DNA of 64,000 bases from Liolophura sinensis (taxonomy: Eukaryota > Mollusca > Polyplacophora > Chitonida > Chitonidae), in contig NC_088306.1 of NCBI RefSeq assembly GCF_032854445.1, forward strand, positions 18,387,764-18,451,763, read 5' to 3'. The position numbers and the translations under genes are program-made. The notes below the pieces were generated by a model. It was not told the DNA's origin, searched no databases, and saw only the letters and a list, made by a program, of their open reading frames with translations. Below, one piece after another: positions 724 to 59,228 of the stretch (positions within the stretch are counted from its first letter, which is position 1; each line of letters starts with the position of its first letter).

Positions 724-3492
724 CTACATCAAACAAACATACGTTTTGTTCAGTCTTTAAAGAATACTTCCTTTTTTACAATCATTATTAGTCAGTTTAG
801 TCAAGCATGTATTCATATATACAAGTGGTGCTACAACTTGCAAATCACCAACACTCACAGATGTAGGCGATGGTAAACACACATGGAAAGTGTGACTGTG
901 TTAATTTCCATACCTTTTGTCAGAAATCTTCTATGTTTATTTGAAAACAGCATGACCCTTTTGGACTGAGATAAGCAAAAAGTTAATACAAAGCAAACTA
1001 GGGTGAACTAATTTTACTACATATAGTTGAAGAACTACAGACAAAAAGATTTGCATTGTTTCTGGACAGACCAGTTGAGTTATGATACTTGCAATGGTTC
1101 CTGACAAACTTACCAAGCTGTAATGACTTTGCACTGGTTGTTGACAAACTCAAAAAGTTATAATGATGTTGCACTGGTTGTTGACAGACCTAACAGTGAG
1201 TTAGTGCTTGGGGTTTAGCTTTGTACTTAACAATTTTTCAGTCATATGACAATGAAGGTATCCTTCGAGTGCATGTAATGTGCATCCTTGTTGCAGGACG
1301 GATTTCCACCACTCTTTTATCTAGTGCTGCTGCACTGACATGCCTTACCGAAGGCAACTAAGCCGACCTGCCCGGGCCATTATACTGATACGGGTCAACC
1401 AGGCGTTGCACTATCACGTTCATGCTGAACGCCAAGTGAGTCTTAGGTGTGACTCGACCCAGGATTGACCCTGGATCTATTGCTCCTGAATCGGATGCTC
1501 AACCAACTGTGCTAGCGGTGAAGTGACAGACCTAACAAGTCATAATGATATTGCACTGGTTGTTGACAAACTAATAAAGTCATAATGAAACTGCACTGAT
1601 TTTTGACAGACTTACGAAGTATTAATAAAGTTGCACTGGTTGTTGATAGGCTTACCAAGTGTAAATGAAGTTGCACTGGTTGTTGACAAACTTACCAAGT
1701 TATAATGAAGTTGTACCAGTTTTGGAGCAGCAGTGTATGGACATCCCTCAACTTTACACTGAAAAAAAAAAAACAACAAGAAAGATTTTAAAAAGATCAA
1801 ATTGTAAAATAACGAGAACTAAATTCAGTATAAACCTTAAATAAACCTCATTTTTCAGAACTTGATCAGTGAAAACAGATGTAATTGACAGTTAACTAGA
1901 TTTTCAAACAAACTGCTATGTACAGTTGTGAATATATTTGGTCTGTACATATGTATAAAAAAACCCAGCAAGGTTAAATGACGTTCTAAAGTTTTAGCCT
2001 TGCTGGACCTGAATGAACCACTCTTTCTAGCTGAATACACATGTATCTACCTTCTGATGCGCTCCTATGTGAATGTCATAGCCTTCCTTAGTTTTGAAGC
2101 CTTTATCACAAATGTCACAGTAAAAAGCATTGTTCTCTGCCAGATCTCGCTTGTCCACTTTTGGTTTATTCTGCTTCTGAAAATAATACAAGAGACAGTA
2201 TACAGTATACTAATAACATAACTGAAGATGTTTCAAACCAAGAACATTGATATAATTGGGCCAATCAGATCTGTCCTTGACCACAAGGGGTGTGAGCTCA
2301 AATCCATATCTAGCTTCATGGTTGTGGCATCAAGATAAGAGGGGTTTTTTTTTCAGGTACAGAAGATGATTCAATAACAATATAATCCCTATGTATTTAT
2401 ACAAAGTTGATAAAATTTTATAACGGCAGTATAATTAGCTGCAATACTATTATAGCGTTCAAAACTTTAATGCGATTGAAGGACAGATTAAGTGACTAGC
2501 TACTGCACAGAGTTCTACTTACACAATACCTACATTTCCCTATTTTGTAAATTTATTTACTTGATTCATGTTCACGCCATACTCAAGAACATTTCATTTA
2601 TATGAGGGCAGCCAGCATTATGGTTGGAGCAAACCAGGCAGAACCTAAGGAAATCCACGATCACCCACTACTTTGTGTTAATGCCTGATGCAAAATTTCT
2701 CACCATTTTATTTGCTCTTATGAGATATACATAATGTGTAGTTCACAACAAAGGGAATGTTTGCAGATCTGCCAGTATGATGCATGTCTCAAGCCAATTT
2801 ACACAATCAAACAATATTACATGGTCCATGCTAGTCATCTCAGAGGTAATTCTGCGAGATAAATGATCTCCCTTCTTATTTAACATTCTAACATTTACCT
2901 TGTCTACCCACCATATGAATGTGAGAAATATAAATTATGGAAGTAGTACATTTGACGTTGGTGAATAAGCCAAGTTGGCATTTCAGTTTTTAACTGTACA
3001 CATTATTGTATCCAAGAAGATGACTAGGTTATTGATCATACTGATCAGTCAGGTTTCTTGTTCGAATCCAAAACATGACTTTGTTGTAGTTTTAAAACTA
3101 AAATGAAATAAATAAGTCATCACAACAGTAACAATTTCACAGACAGTGAACGAGGCGAACTTTGGTACCCTTTTCTCCTGTTTTCTATTCGCATTATTGC
3201 CACCTGGACTGCAAGGGTTGCTGTGTCTTGGATGTTGATGTAATAGCTTGGGTCTGTGATCTTGATAAAACGCACCCCTCGGTGGGCCCCCTGGTCTAAC
3301 AAATCTCTGGAATGGAGGGGGTCCATGAGGTATTATTCCGGGTGGAAACGGGCGGTGCGAACGAAAAGGGCCGGGTCTTCCCGCAAAAGGCCTCATTGGC
3401 CGGTGCATTCCATCAATGGGAAAAGGCCTCCGTACCTGGCCATTTCCACCAAAGAACATTCCCCTCGGAGGGCCTCTAGGAAAGAATGCCAT
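641..3492 (-). CDS. NUFIP1: NUFIP1-like protein, 5' part of gene (exons 3169-3492, 2051-2176, 1696-1758, 641-723)
   Basis: The four exons read in a consistent frame. The N-terminus is rich in Pro, Gly, Arg and Phe (MAFFPRGPPRG...). A zinc-finger exon carries FYCDICDKGF and a downstream His (IGAH). A third exon encodes CKVEGCPYTA, a second Cys pair, and a fourth encodes ESPEDVAKWRAERK. This order (disordered N-terminus, C2H2 finger, KC..EGC segment, then the P-E-x-x-x-x-W-R-x-E-R motif) is that of NUFIP1. From knowledge of the family, NUFIP1 is a nuclear RNA-binding factor that bridges the R2TP chaperone and SNU13 during box C/D snoRNP assembly; the W-R-x-E-R stretch begins the SNU13-binding PEP motif. 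The start is chosen at MAFF (A at -3, G at +4). The C-terminal half is missing because the gene runs off the left edge. The exon 1 donor (GTACCA) is weak and uncertain. Confidence 0.85.
1034..1700. repeat. 40-bp minisatellite built on a NUFIP1 exon end and 5' splice site
   Basis: Unit markers GCACTGGTTG occur at 1131 and 1171. After removing the SINE and one TSD copy, the next (1553) is again 40 bp on. On the minus strand units read exon-like CATTATAACTTG followed by GTAAGT; donor-like copies (CTTG or CTTC, then GTAAG) recur at about 1110, 1611, 1651 and 1690. About eight units, decaying to the left. Confidence 0.88.
1196..1523 (-). repeat. SINE family B, with 14-bp TSD, nested in minisatellite
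   Basis: The tRNA-like head is at the right (reverse complement of the AGCACAGTTGG type) and the tail GCTTGGGGTTTAG type is at the left. It is flanked by TGACAGACCTAACA at 1182-1195 and 1524-1537. Removing it restores the 40-bp array register. Confidence 0.92.
1696..1758 (-). CDS. NUFIP1: NUFIP1-like exon 3 (CKVEGCPYTAAPK)
   Basis: This is 21 codons in phase 0, preceded by a T-rich tract and CAG, and ending AACTTG before donor GTAAGTTTG. It corresponds to the segment that directly follows the finger in vertebrate NUFIP1. The exon's last ~25 bases and its donor are the repeat unit of the 40-bp minisatellite to its left (1034-1700). Confidence 0.88.
2051..2176 (-). CDS. NUFIP1: NUFIP1-like zinc-finger exon
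   Basis: This is 42 codons in phase 0 at both ends, with acceptor TATTTTCAG and donor GTAGAT. It encodes a basic lead (KQNKPKVDKRD) and the finger FYCDICDKGFKTKEGYDIH followed by a second His five residues later. This matches the single diagnostic C2H2 finger of the NUFIP1 family. Confidence 0.9.
2535..2650 (-). repeat. SINE family A fragment
   Basis: Degenerate tail and core of the family (ACGCCATACTCAAGAACATT) followed by the GCAGCCAGCATTATGG segment. The head is missing. Confidence 0.65.
3169..3492 (-). CDS. NUFIP1: NUFIP1-like exon 1 (start codon)
   Basis: Encodes about 108 residues of low-complexity sequence rich in Pro, Gly, Arg, Phe and His, typical of the disordered NUFIP1 N-terminus. 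The reading frame stays open to 3049, so the donor is not fixed. A GTACCA donor at 3168 gives phase 0, which fits the next exon. An upstream in-frame ATG near 3546 exists but has a less convincing context. Confidence 0.7.
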
Positions 3493-3762
3493 GTTACCTT
3501 TAAGTAAGCACAGTTTTGAACAATGTCGGTTATTAAAATTTGTCAAAACTTAGATTTACATTCAGTGACTTCGCCAGCCATGAGCGCTTCCTGAACATGT
3601 GCGCGTTGAGGTCAAGGCCATCAAAGTTCCGAGGTAAACCATAATACTCTATTTTCATTGGTCACATTTCGAACGACCCAGTAGATTTGACCAACCGCTA
3701 TAAACGGATTTCTTTTTCTGCCACACAGAGATTCCGCTGTAAACACAGAGTCAACGAGCAAA
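3493..3762. promoter_or_regulatory. Probable bidirectional promoter, NUFIP1-like / ANKRD42
   Basis: Only 270 bp separate the two divergent start codons, so both 5' UTRs and core promoters must lie here. An inverted CCAAT box (CATTGGTC) is visible near 3656-3663 and no clear TATA box is placed for either gene. The region is locally richer in CpG (for example TTTCGAACGACC, AACCGC) than the surrounding introns. Promoter function is inferred from layout. Confidence 0.6.
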
Positions 3763-14011
<10,249 letters not shown>

Positions 14012-14867
14012 ACAGTTGTCCTGAATGAGAAATTCGCGTCGTTTGTCGTGAATGAGAAATTCTCATCAGTTGTCATGCGTGAGAAATTCTCATCAATTGT
14101 CATTACCTTTAGAATTGTGGCCATTACCTTTAGAATTGTGGCCATTGTTGCTCAGATCTGTATGTATCAAAAGTTAAGCGCACTCTCGACTCCTGTCTCA
14201 TTTTATGTTGTGTTGTCAATGACCTTGCAAAGTACACTTTTTGTGGGAGTTTCTTGGTCATTCCGTTGTAAAGATTTTCTTACAACAACTGGTCAGCAAC
14301 AGTTGAAGGTTGAAATGTAAGTACTGTTGGTTCAGTTGCTGCTGTGAGTCAGGAGTTGAGTCAGGTGTCGAGGCAGGTGTTGGGTGTCGGTGTCAGGTGT
14401 CAGGCAAAGAAGCAGTGTTGTTCTGTTAATTAACAACAAATACAGTCAAATAAGTAAGTGATGTTGTCATACGCCTTTGTGAGAAAAGTACAACTGTATA
14501 CTTCCAGGTGAACATATGTATTAGAATGGCTTTTCACTCAGTGAACTTTTGTATTGATGATGGCAATTGTGTCATGTCCGTTGTAGTCAAACATAAAGTC
14601 TGTTTCAGACTTTTTTTTGATCTCTGAATTTGGGAATTTAAAGCCATCAAATTTGCATGAAAGCCGCACTAAGAGTGCATTGGTTGATGTAATGACAACA
14701 GAGGTCAGTGCACTTGGAACTGTTACAGTATAACATTTGTGTAGACAGTAAACTACATGTGCATCTACAGTATAATGTTCTCCATGATTTTCCACTTGTG
14801 GATCTCCATGAGGCTTTTAGCGGTTCAGTACCATTTACCTAGCCTTCATCTGCTGTAAGTGTCCTCT
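14012..14867 (+). other. Probable 3' UTR and flank of ANKRD42
   Basis: Sequence after the stop contains a short tandem repeat of ~30 bp (14030-14100, unit around GAATGAGAAATTC) and a 21-bp duplication (14101-14146, CATTACCTTTAGAATTGTGG). No convincing AATAAA was found close by, so the transcript end is not placed. Confidence 0.4.
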
Positions 14868-15075
14868 GTGTCAGAGTGGTTAGTGTGCTAGCACAGCACA
14901 TGAATCGATAGCCTCTCACCGATGTGGTTGCAGGGAGTTCAGATCTAACTAATGGGGGCTTTCTCTCTGGGTTCTATCTGGGAAGGTCTGTCAGCTACCT
15001 GCGGATGGTTGTGAGCATCCCAGTTTCCTCCCACTATAATTCTCTCTGCCGTTGTATAATTAAACTATTCTTGAG
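14868..15075 (+). repeat. SINE family A, diverged copy
   Basis: Head GTGTCAGAGTGGTTAGTGTG, core GGGAAGGTCTGTCAGC, and tail similarity to ~15075. Confidence 0.7.
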
Positions 15076-16160
15076 AAAGTTGATAAACTCACAAACACCA
15101 GTAGCTCCTTTTTTTCATTCAAAGCTGTAAAGACTTGAACATAAATAGCAAGCTGTTTAGCTTCTCACAGCCTATTTCGTTCAAATCAGGCGATTTTCGA
15201 AGGTATTGTATCGTTACAATCAGATATCATTCGCTAAATGTCTATGTTTTTTTGTTTTATCTTTTTATTATAGAAGCTTTCAGGTCAAATTTAGCACACA
15301 TACATGGTGGGTTTTTGCATTGATATTTTTTCATCATTTATGTGAGAAATGTACAGGTATCCTCGGACCTTGTGTTATTTAGTTCAAGGTACTGTCACAT
15401 AGTTTAAACACATATAGGTTATAAGGCAGGCCAATTTATTACCTTTTGGACTTACTGTTTTATGAATTTAATTAACATATTTATATACATATGCATACTG
15501 TGATATACAGTTTACCTTCATTATATAAATATACACATTTGATGTTTAGCAATGTGAACTATAATTGTTAATATGGATATATTTATGGTATTTCATTCTA
15601 AATTGTAAAATTTGTACATTTTAAAATGTTCGTGGATTCCAAACATACAGATGTTTGTTTATAATGTTTGAGGAATTTTTCACCCTCAAGACTGATTTCA
15701 GACTTGTTTTTGAAATCATAGTATAATGTAGCACGGGGAAGATCTAAAGACTTCAGTGCATATAAAATTTGTTTTGGAATTGGCGTCAGTTTCAGGTAGG
15801 ACATTTACTTATAGATGTATCAGCAATCAGTGTACTGTTTGTTTCTTTTTTTGTTTTGTTTTTTTTAATTCTTTCATTGCTAATTATATTTTTACTTGTT
15901 GCCGTCCAAATCATTGTATAATCAGCTCATTAAACGTGACCTGCAAAACTATTTTCACTATATTTAAAGTTTTTTCTACATATTAATAGACTGAACCCTT
16001 GATCAATGAACTGAGGTTCTTGTCACCAAGAGAAAAGGACAGATAAACTCATGTTGTGGTCATTAAAAATATTATATGAACATACTAAATTTTTATTTCT
16101 TTGTTTATTTGATCACTGTTTAACATGCCATATTCCAGAATATAACACGTTTTTCATATG
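15076..16160. other. Intergenic, nothing recognised
   Basis: AT-rich sequence with no exon-like segment, no protein similarity and no strong repeat that I could define. It may include the distal ANKRD42 3' UTR. Confidence 0.4.
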
Positions 16161-16166
16161 TTTTCA

Positions 16167-16432
16167 GGCCTCCGTGGCTCAGTTGGTTAGCGCACTAACG
16201 GAGCGTGATGACCCAGGAGTCTCTCACCAATGCGGTCGCTGTGAGATCAAGTCCAGCTCATCCTGGCTTCCTCTCCGGCCGTAAGTGGGAAGGTCTGCCA
16301 GCAACCTGCGGATGGTTGTGGGTTTCCCTCGGGCTGTGCCCGGTTTCCACCCACCATAATGCTGGCTGCCGTTGTATAAGTGAAATATTCTTGAGTACGG
16401 CGTAAAACACCAATCAAATAAATAAATAAATA
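16167..16432 (+). repeat. SINE family A, full-length copy
   Basis: Complete element: tRNA-like head with an A box at GGCTCAGTTGGTTAGCGC and a B-box-like GAGATCAAGTCC. A ~150-bp central domain follows (GGGAAGGTCTGCCAGCAAC ... GCTGGCTGCCGTTGTATAAG), then ATTCTTGAGTACGGCGTAAA and an (AAATA)n tail. A good reference copy for this window. Confidence 0.88.
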
Positions 16433-16809
16433 AGAATGGGAAACTCGTGTTCAGGCTTTACAAAATAGCCTTAGTTCCAGTGGAACACATCATTTTCTTT
16501 CGTCTCTGCAGAGTGTAATAGTGCAATAATTGCTCAGGTCTAGGAATAACCAGTTTTAATGGGAGGCTTATGGATGTTTTACACAAATGGTCCAAATGGC
16601 AGTAGAACACATTCATTTCTTCTGTGACAGTGCAGTGCTCATGTACTGCTTAGGTATTTTATGAGTCCATATACACCGATAATGGTGACGCAATAAGAGG
16701 AAAGCACAAAAAAGTTCCTAGCTTCAAACCGCTTTTTCTACAGAAGGGAAGGAGTTGTATGAGATCCCCGTTGTCAGTTGCAAAAACCGATGAGTGCCTG
16801 GGGAAATCA

Positions 16810-16955
16810 CCTACCTGTGGCAAGCTACTTATGAACTGGTCTGCCAACAACCGGGCTCTGCCCGATTCCCTGCCACCGTAATGCTGGCCTCCGTCACATA
16901 AGTGAAATATTCTTGAGTACAGCGTAAAATGCCATTCAAATAAACAAATAACCGT
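16810..16955 (+). repeat. SINE family A, 5'-truncated
   Basis: Contains only the 3' half: ACAACCGGGCTCTGCCCG through GAAATATTCTTGAGTACAGC and AAATAAACAAATAA. Confidence 0.75.
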
Positions 16956-17145
16956 ATGAACTTTTCCATGTGGATGTACACCATACTGGTGGAAAAAAAA
17001 AAAAAGTGTTCTTCAACCAGGGTCCCACAAGCAGTGAGAGAGGGTGCACAACTGGGTTTAGAAGCTTCTCCTTGTGTATCTCGGAGATTGAAAGGTAAGA
17101 CCAGCTCCTAACTGACGGCTGGATATATACGATTCCACAAAGTCA

Positions 17146-17346
17146 ATTCCACAAAGCCCCTGTCTGATCTAAGTCAAAAGTAAAGATCTCATCACAGTGC
17201 TTAGATTCTTGTACTGAATGTGGACACCTTTGTCTTAAGGTAACATTGAGGTGGTCAAAAATTTAATTTATAAAGCCCTAAATTAAGCTATAATACCCAA
17301 TCTCAAATTTGGACCTCGATCAAAAATGGCTCTGGAATCAAGCCCA
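17146..17346. mobile_element. MITE family D
   Basis: Left end CAATTCCACAAAGCCCCTGT and right end AAAAATGGCTCTGGAATC are imperfect inverted repeats. Interior GTGGACACCTTTGTCTTAAG is shared with the other copies. Confidence 0.65.
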
Positions 17347-17466
17347 GATAATGCATGACAGGAAGAGATTCGATGGGATTAAATGTATGTTGTTCAGCGG
17401 ATGTGGCCTAAAATCAGAACCCTCTGACAGTTAAGCATATCTACTGCAACTAAAATACATATTCAA

Positions 17467-17570
17467 ATTATTTATTTATTTATTTAATTGGTGCTATATG
17501 CCATGCCCAAGAACATTTCACTTACACCACGGTCACCAGAATTATGGTGGAATGAAACCATGCAGTCCAG
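17467..17570 (-). repeat. SINE family A, tail fragment
   Basis: TTTATTTATTTATTTAATTG followed by CCAAGAACATTTCACTTA; the head is missing. Confidence 0.65.
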
Positions 17571-17707
17571 CATGAGATGAATTTGAGATGAAACGAGATG
17601 AATAACTTGAGTAAATTAGTTATGATGTGGTAAAACCAAACAAAAAATATCAAATAGATTTGCATGAAAACACGGAGCTGTTGTTGAAAAGTGTACTAGC
17701 AATCAAG

Positions 17708-17935
17708 ACCAGGGATCAATTCCACAAAACCATTTCTGACAGAATTTAAGAACTGCTCTTAGTTTTTAATACTGGAAGTTGAAATTTGGACACATTTGCC
17801 TCAAGATAACATTAAGGACGTGGAAAAAATTTTAATTTCTAAGGCCTAAAAATAAACTTGAAGATCATATTTCAAATTTAAAATTTTTAAAGTCAGAAAT
17901 GGCTTTGTGAAACCGTCCCCAGTATTAGAATAAGA
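17708..17935. mobile_element. MITE family D
   Basis: Left end ATCAATTCCACAAAACCATT and right end AGTCAGAAATGGCTTTGTGA are inverted repeats. Interior TTTGGACACATTTGCCTCAA. Confidence 0.7.
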
Positions 17936-17976
17936 TTTTCTTTTTTTTGCCATTTTTACAATCTTTGGCTTTGATC

Positions 17977-18195
17977 CCAGGCCCCAGGATCACAAATTAA
18001 TCTTGGACGTAAGTCAGAATTTCAGTCAATAGAATTGTATGTTCCTTTCCTTTATTTTAGGTGAAATTTGTTTTACAATAACTCACCCACAATTTATGTT
18101 GCTATGCAGTACTTTGACTTTGTTGCGTAAGAAATAACAATTTTATAGTGATGTGAAATTTTGACTCAAGCCTCATATTGCTTCATGATCCCGAC
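17977..18195. mobile_element. Palindromic element F
   Basis: CCAGGATCACAAATTAATCT at left and TTCATGATCCCGACCTGG at right are imperfect inverted repeats. Related sequence occurs at 41690-42236. Confidence 0.5.
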
Positions 18196-18374
18196 CTGGA
18201 GGCAGATGCTCTTACCAATAGGCCACTGAAGCATTCAAGAAAAGAACGGTGCTCAGATTGTAGTCTGACTGAACCACTGACTTCTCCAGCAAATTACACA
18301 CCAAATTCCTAAGGGGTGTCACATTTGACCATTAAGAACACACCACAAATATTTAGGTGGACTTGTTAAAATAT

Positions 18375-19622
18375 TTTATTTGCACCATGACTGACAAAAC
18401 AGAATCTTATTGAGCTGATAAGAAAAAAACTGGATTTGTCTTGAGTATATTTCTGGTAACAACTTTTCAAGAAACTGGCATAAAAAAAAAAAAGAAAAGT
18501 GTGAACTAGAGACAACATTTCAATTTTTTTCAAACTTCACCTTCCTAAAAATTTTACTCCAGTCCGAGAAATGCTGAATGAAAGTTAACAAGCACCAAAT
18601 ATTGAAAATACGACGACTGCACACTTATGGCACAGATTTAATTTCCGAGCAGCATTTCTCAGACCAAACTGTTTCCTATTTATTTTTTTTTGATTACGGA
18701 TCAGAGCAAACCCTTTGCACAGTTCAAAGAGATTTGGGTTAAAAGACAATCTGTACAGTTTTGTATTAAACGTTGTTGGAGCTGAGAGTCCTAACATCAC
18801 AGATACATGTATATTCCCTTACATCAAACAAAAACATGGCAGTGTTATTATCATCAGCCATTCCACAGGCTGAAAGAACGAGACAAACATAAGAACAACG
18901 AAAAAAAAAAAGGTCAGGTAATATTATATATGAATACACTACCAGTTTACATTTTTAATACGGACGATTGGCACTTGGGGGAGCCACCTGTCTGAACAAA
19001 CAATGGTGGCTTCTCTAAACTAGAACACACATTTTTAATACAGCTACTGCAACATGGCGGTGTGACACATGAAAATTGGTGGCATGGATAAATTTAAGTC
19101 CAAAAGATTTATTCAACCAAATTTTTTCACTGAAACTTATCAGAGCCATCAAAATTAGTCCATCCTTCCAAACCCAGAACATGTACAGTATGTTGCTATT
19201 ACGATAAAATATCGTAAAAAAAAAAAAAACCCGAACTAAATACAGAAATCATGCTGCGTATCATACAGTGAGCTTGGCTAGACACAAAACCTATATCAAA
19301 AACATATCAGACTATGGCAATTCAGTTTTAATTATGAGTATAAAAACACGGTAATAATGAGAATTACTGACACCTTCCATCAGTTCAGAAGTAAGATTCG
19401 CTGAATAATCCATACGAATGTGGAAATTAAAATCTTCGTTGAATAACGTCTGTCTTTCGTCTCCAGGCCCAATGCGCATAAATATAACCAAACCTGGAGA
19501 GAAAACTACTGGTGCACATATCCCACCCTTCTGGAAATGTGCTCCTTGATTAAGAATAGAAAAAACCCTAACCAATATATATTGCCATTTTTTTCCTCTG
19601 TGTTTTAAATTGTTGAAATTCT
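18375..19622 (-). other. Probable 3' UTR of the COL4 gene
   Basis: Sequence downstream of the stop with no other gene. On the minus strand AATAAA occurs at 18679-18684 and again at 18375-18380. Either could end the transcript, giving a 3' UTR of ~0.95 or ~1.25 kb. Extent is inference. Confidence 0.4.

Positions 19623-59228
<39,606 letters not shown>

Follow-up and report, generated by a model that had tools for sequence, protein, structure and literature searches.

Are splice donors preferred sites for tandem duplication? The question arises from a 64-kb stretch of genomic DNA (G000:C12:18387764-18451763, hereafter the window; assembly total 609 Mb) in which three minisatellites overlap the end of an exon and its 5' splice site. 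The initial annotation suggested that exon/donor junctions are preferred nucleation points for such arrays, or that ladders of donors are tolerated or selected. TRF and copy alignment bore out its description of 40-, 38- and 46-bp arrays (arrays 1, 2 and 3) built on an exon end plus donor, and they do lie in two genes, both on the minus strand: a NUFIP1-like zinc-finger gene at the left end of the window, recognized by profile match, and a collagen IV gene (Table 1). The units are also unrelated, as claimed; by eye they have little in common beyond the splice consensus.

Table 1. Features of the window and junction-associated arrays in other collagen genes. Positions in colIVb, fibA and colC4 use joined-region numbering in transcript orientation; a slash in a sequence marks the exon/intron junction.
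Feature	Location	Strand	Details
Array 1, distal part past insertion	window 1050..1194	-	TRF 1089-1186; extension to ~1050 by eye
Dispersed repeat within array 1	window 1196..1523	.	ends by eye; probable target-site duplication at flanks
Array 1, exon-proximal part	window 1524..1695	-	40-bp copies of exon end + donor, into intron
63-nt exon, NUFIP1-like gene (CKVEGCPYTAAPKLVQLHYNL)	window 1696..1758	-	donor GT at 1694-1695
Collagen IV alpha gene	window 19635..57961	-	31 called Gly-X-Y exons (57961 to 23379) + NC1 exons
Array 2, unit CAGGATCTTG/GTGAGTCAGCAAGTGTGGTGTCCTCATA	window 21590..22426	-	38 bp x 22.1, 90% matches (TRF)
First NC1 exon, collagen IV alpha	window 22417..22529	-	ends GQDLG, donor GTGAGT; C4 domain PF01413
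Array 3	window 24187..24464	-	46 bp x 6.0, 97% matches (TRF)
Collagen IV Gly-X-Y exon	window 24451..24579	-	donor CAG/GTAAGA; Collagen PF01391 in spliced piece
31-bp x 8.3 array, no exon sequence	window 31732..31989	-	ends 3 nt before acceptor of exon 31595-31728
44-bp-based array, no exon sequence	window 43918..44662	-	starts ~15 nt past donor of exon ending 44678
Donor-spanning array	colIVb 24331		46 bp, 19 exon nt
Donor-spanning array	fibA 63972		44 bp, 11-12 exon nt
Acceptor-spanning array	colIVb 40102		92 bp, 11 exon nt
Acceptor-spanning array	colIVb 43811 (43587-43811; L005 3587-3811)		~64 bp, 26 exon nt
Acceptor-spanning array	fibA 17561		78 bp, >=7 exon nt
Acceptor-spanning array	colC4 18807		66 bp, 13 exon nt
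Array without exon sequence	fibA 23563		begins right at the GT

In the NUFIP1-like gene, the array-1 unit matches the last ~20 nt of the 63-nt exon, a stretch that also codes for a putative zinc-finger histidine. The exon-proximal donor completes CKVEGCPYTAAPKLVQLHYNLQH in the spliced protein, and a NUFIP1 family match follows (PF10453, E = 3.8e-5). The zf-C2H2_jaz Pfam match in that protein covers only the finger upstream of this exon; the exon itself is a putative C2H2 finger, read from its sequence letters. Going into the intron, the copy donors are TTG/GTAAGC and TTC/GTAAGT and are then lost, according to copy alignment and donor scores. TRF reports array 1 as two 40-bp segments, 1089-1186 (82% matches) and 1524-1713 (78%). 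The array is in two pieces because a dispersed repeat has inserted inside it, and it therefore predates that insertion. A direct repeat of ~14 bp, found by eye, flanks the inserted element (1182-1195 and 1524-1537), and window positions ~1195-1400 have at least 39 near-full-length matches elsewhere at 88-91% identity (40 scored of 2615 candidates).

In array 2 the first copy takes in the final 10 nt of the NC1 exon and its donor. When the exon-proximal donor is used, the C4 match bridges the two exons (PF01413, E = 1.2e-25, profile 6-64), and 13 distinct NC1 sequences from collagen IV structures align with the spliced piece. The first copy of array 3 includes 14 exon nt, and all five intronic copies retain CAG/GTAAGA; here the exon-proximal donor keeps the Gly-X-Y register (GESG/LPGVDG). 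In genome searches array 2 was single-locus, as was array 3 apart from one weak 69% match elsewhere. None of the matches listed for the array-1 unit lay outside its own locus, in a search that was swamped by the dispersed repeat. The related copies at many loci that mark a mobile element or introner were thus not found for any of the three arrays in these searches.

Homology supports all three exons, so more than GT-like motifs is involved. The zinc-finger histidine, the NC1 motif GQDLG and the Gly-X-Y register each find their correct continuation only with the exon-proximal donor. Splicing at the second donor breaks protein continuity in arrays 2 and 3, and gives a frame shift or a stop in array 1. 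Extensions to later donors hit a stop at all five lengths in array 3; in arrays 1 and 2 (four lengths each) they do so from the third copy onward. Unit lengths of 38, 40 and 46 bp are not divisible by 3, and an in-frame length comes up only every third copy. In RNA, the first donor would probably be the one used, judging from the reading frame. These exon ends code for conserved residues, which makes the exon copy the simplest candidate for the founder.

The initial annotation also had each array growing from the real donor into the intron. The orientation is as described, but it is imposed by geometry: any tandem duplication across a junction places the extra copies 3' of the first donor (or 5' of the last acceptor). 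Each array is plainly a repeat, and three exon-end arrays in one window are not clearly above what would be expected of a minisatellite-rich genome. We sampled 195 kb from four other collagen regions, one holding two genes; together with the window gene this made six genes. Exons were called by Gly-X-Y pattern, splice score and phase; the caller favours compatible phases, and four of 190 neighbouring pairs were phase-incompatible. We added two NC1 exons to colIVa by hand and merged overlapping calls in colC4 (two pairs).

Tandem duplication over exon/donor junctions has indeed occurred repeatedly and independently: it was also found in colIVb, in fibA and, outside the collagens, in an ankyrin-repeat exon on C1 (L027 1582-2027; 31-bp donor-spanning array, ~25 exon nt). 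Four further collagen arrays span acceptors. The exon finder accepted one array copy in colIVb as an exon (43738-43764); we rejected this pseudo-exon, which is a copy bearing AG plus exon-start sequence, and it stands as a warning for annotation. Each of the five scored donor arrays holds a copy within ~1 bit of the real site.

This wider set bears on the suggestion that donor ladders are under selection, serving as spare or regulatory splice sites or as alternative donors like those of human IFI6. In all five intronic copies of array 3 and at 13 of the 21 array-2 ladder positions, the copy donor equals or exceeds the real donor in score, as such retention would have it. However, the unit lengths and the stops met by extensions argue against use of these sites, donor scores show decay among the copies in array 1 and colIVb, and in two of the four acceptor arrays, colC4 and fibA 17561, the copies no longer have AG at the site aligned with the acceptor. 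With donor ladders also not clearly enriched genome-wide (below), we consider selective retention very unlikely.

The duplication rate at junctions was measured on 194 exons of the six collagen genes, leaving out array 1 and the ankyrin array. Raw repeated 30-mers were found at 5 of 195 donors, 5 of 195 acceptors, 16.7% of intron interior and 0.5% of exon interior; exon interiors are nearly repeat-free, as expected under purifying selection. Every inner copy of an array enters the raw intron figure again, and that figure also includes the 19 kb between the two fibA genes; this makes the raw comparison with introns a biased one, and we therefore turned to first-copy and founder measures, with the gap left out. 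In the first-copy test, the 30-mer centred on a junction had to be the first copy of a local repeat (the last copy for acceptors). Four of 194 donors and four of 194 acceptors were spanned (2.06% each; 95% interval for 4/194, 0.56-5.2%), against 2.77% of 98,546 intron-interior positions by the first-copy test and 2.92% by the last-copy test (P(>=) = 0.79 and 0.82, respectively). Three other stringencies agreed with this outcome. Outside the window gene, the same test gave 2/161 donors and 4/161 acceptors.

Local alignment gave a similar picture. At a score of at least 28 and better than 60 non-cognate junctions, 4/193 donors, 4/193 acceptors and 17/456 random intron anchors were positive. With any score allowed, 6/193 donors and 9/193 acceptors beat all 60 non-cognates (3.2 expected), which leans the other way. 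For the founder expectation, the periods of 60 arrays add up to 3,646 nt and the intron sequence to 135,680 nt, which puts 5.2 donors within a founder unit.

The enrichment of array edges at donors that the initial annotation had predicted was checked in the six collagen genes by whole-array permutation, with exon-internal collagen repeats and periods <20 left out. It was not found: donors had 5 array edges vs 3.57 expected (P = 0.28), and acceptors had 5 vs 3.49 (P = 0.27). Outside the window the counts were 3 vs 2.94 for donors and 4 vs 2.92 for acceptors, while the window collagen IV gene alone had 2 donor-edge arrays vs 0.60 (P = 0.12). A variant in which the 19 kb separating the two fibA genes was wrongly taken as intron, and colIVb 43587-43811 dropped, gave P = 0.12 for donors, 0.26 for acceptors and 0.078 for both. 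The permutation leans toward an excess without significance (both sides together, 10 vs 7.06 expected, P = 0.17), which counts against a reading in which arrays straddle junctions by chance. Within intron-internal arrays, sense vs antisense donor sites numbered 3 vs 30 at the lowest cut-off and 0 vs 7 at the next; arrays with sites in half their copies numbered 1 vs 1, too few to draw on.

Donor ladders were also counted as words across the genome. Triples of AGGTRAG at 26-56 nt spacing numbered 7321 (3569 + 3752) and those of the reversed word 2956; a control word, TGGAGAR, gave 5723 and its reverse 1847. Single-word counts in a 259-kb sample were 134, 51, 132 and 44 in the same order, which makes the ratios of triples to single words 55, 58, 43 and 42. 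There is no clear excess of ladders over word frequency by this control, which is rough because an exon-rich collagen sample holds many real donors (counts away from exons and arrays are 49 for AGGTRAG and 87 for TGGAGAR); the matches cluster in few arrays, and a mild excess could hide. Among the first matches listed (C1, first 1.38 Mb) were eight ladder loci, five of them given to Pfam; one starts at a recognisable exon end (the ankyrin case) and none was seen at the other seven.

Preferred nucleation at donors, through R-loops, U1-bound sites or another splice-linked fragility, is quite unlikely in light of these counts. Three clear cases in one window and the donor-edge excesses in the six genes and in the window gene point toward it, neither excess being significant. 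Against it, acceptors are spanned exactly as often as donors, the donor rate does not exceed the first-copy rate of introns, neither the donor rate nor the donor-edge count outside the window stands out, and AGGTRAG ladders show no clear enrichment over word frequency. Donor specificity was absent and a preference for nucleation was not detectable in the sampled genes, with an enrichment of up to ~twofold compatible with the interval. Since sampled splice junctions duplicate at about the rate of any intronic base, no special mechanism is needed.

False tandem expansion during assembly would be another way to produce such arrays. The assembly does contain an apparent mitochondrial concatemer, probably an artefact (seven COX1 matches ~15.5 kb apart on C99, with one more on C632), and the frame breaks in one NC1 exon (window 20861-21067, disrupted after FCNINNV, by assembly indels or local decay). 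However, the array copies bear copy-specific substitutions, those of array 1 have diverged and an inserted repeat divides them, and the same anatomy recurs at unrelated loci. We regard an assembly artefact as extremely unlikely.

Each junction recurs head-to-tail, the protein reads on without a break from the first donor, and duplication affects donors and acceptors alike, neither above the intron background. Very probably, then, the arrays are ordinary intronic minisatellites whose founding unit fell by chance across an exon/intron junction, of the type named mirages in amphioxus. The evidence base is a small sample, with exons all from collagens apart from the NUFIP1-like gene and one ankyrin exon. 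Local tandem duplication, by replication slippage or break repair, may strike anywhere in a gene. A duplication at a junction would be tolerated because one intact site stays joined to the exon, and it would survive with that exon-proximal site still in use. Surplus copies would then become intron, lengthen by unequal exchange and decay neutrally; those of arrays 2 and 3 appear to be partly homogenised. The founding event and the neutrality of the copies are what we infer from this pattern.

We take the host to be a mollusc from its haemocyanin, so the cephalochordate host of published mirages, which is no part of their structural definition, is not matched here. Eight haemocyanin beta-sandwich units (PF14830) are consecutive on C8 (8/8 candidates), and we presume such tandem units to be molluscan-type haemocyanin. 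A search of the genome gave no GFP match, a weak hint against a lancelet given that the same search gave nothing in any control genome either.

Contrary to the earlier view that no such class had been described, amphioxus mirages match it. They are presented, in the passages available to us, as minisatellites over exon/intron boundaries that affect both 5' and 3' sites, with Adh3 units of 10-72 bp, AG/GT kept in many but not all copies, and edge copies unlike inner ones (PMC3087553, PMC3902484). The definition given there also includes undisturbed normal mRNA splicing, length polymorphism and somatic instability (PMC3087553, PMC3902484); lancelet PGBD5 and TnC are added cases (PMC3902484). The likeness is close. 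A unit joining exon and intron across the real boundary is seen in the three window arrays, in two donor and four acceptor arrays elsewhere in the collagens and in the ankyrin exon. Both boundary types are affected, many but not all copies in donor and acceptor ladders keep their splice signals, and unit sizes overlap the amphioxus range as far as those passages give it. Undisturbed splicing would apply here on the strength of frame and domain continuity in one assembly. Unlike the published cases, ours are in a mollusc and come with a measured background rate, which is absent from the amphioxus passages.

Two other known systems are less close. The minisatellite of human IFI6 (6-16) is cited as providing multiple splice donors (Turri et al. 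1995, via PMC4526556). As here, its units carry donors at an exon end; by that account downstream units are used as donors, whereas their use in our arrays would be predicted to cause a frame shift or introduce stops. Introns gained when AGGT is tandemly duplicated in the genome, as reviewed in PMC3443670, likewise involve copying of splice-site-like sequence. In that review an exonic duplication gives rise to a new intron, whereas here the duplication copies a junction and yields no evident new intron. Among the papers listed in a literature search, titles and abstract openings gave no description of boundary minisatellites in molluscs or chitons, which is weak evidence of absence. What is new here is the mollusc host and a measured rate with a control; the class itself is already in print.

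Mirages have been little used since they were described, and they are now seen outside lancelets with a controlled rate. If the rate of ~2% per side found in 194 collagen exons holds across genes, the genome would by extrapolation contain thousands of duplicated splice sites. Such a rate makes predictions about intron gain, pseudo-exons and annotation testable genome-wide. We suggest tentatively, as a possibility we would not favour over its opposite, that boundary minisatellites are a general by-product of minisatellite-rich animal genomes and not a lancelet oddity, with thousands of duplicated sites available as raw material from which exon extensions, pseudo-exons and new introns could arise. 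A polarity rule may be part of this, with extra intronic donors tolerated intact and extra upstream acceptors tending to lose their AG; the counts behind it (5/5 donor arrays, 2/4 acceptor arrays) are too few for a test.

Several further features came to light in these regions. A second collagen IV gene lies at G000:C12:18484197-18518791 (L003-L006), on the opposite strand from the window's collagen IV gene and divergent from it. Within the latter, a 42-bp x 78 array (window 25847-29134, TRF) occupies most of one intron. Elsewhere, a 52-bp array (L029 1772-2033) has a unit that holds CTCCCCTTTTATAG/GTAAGAA, an acceptor-like run followed by a donor, which resembles a recursive splice site.
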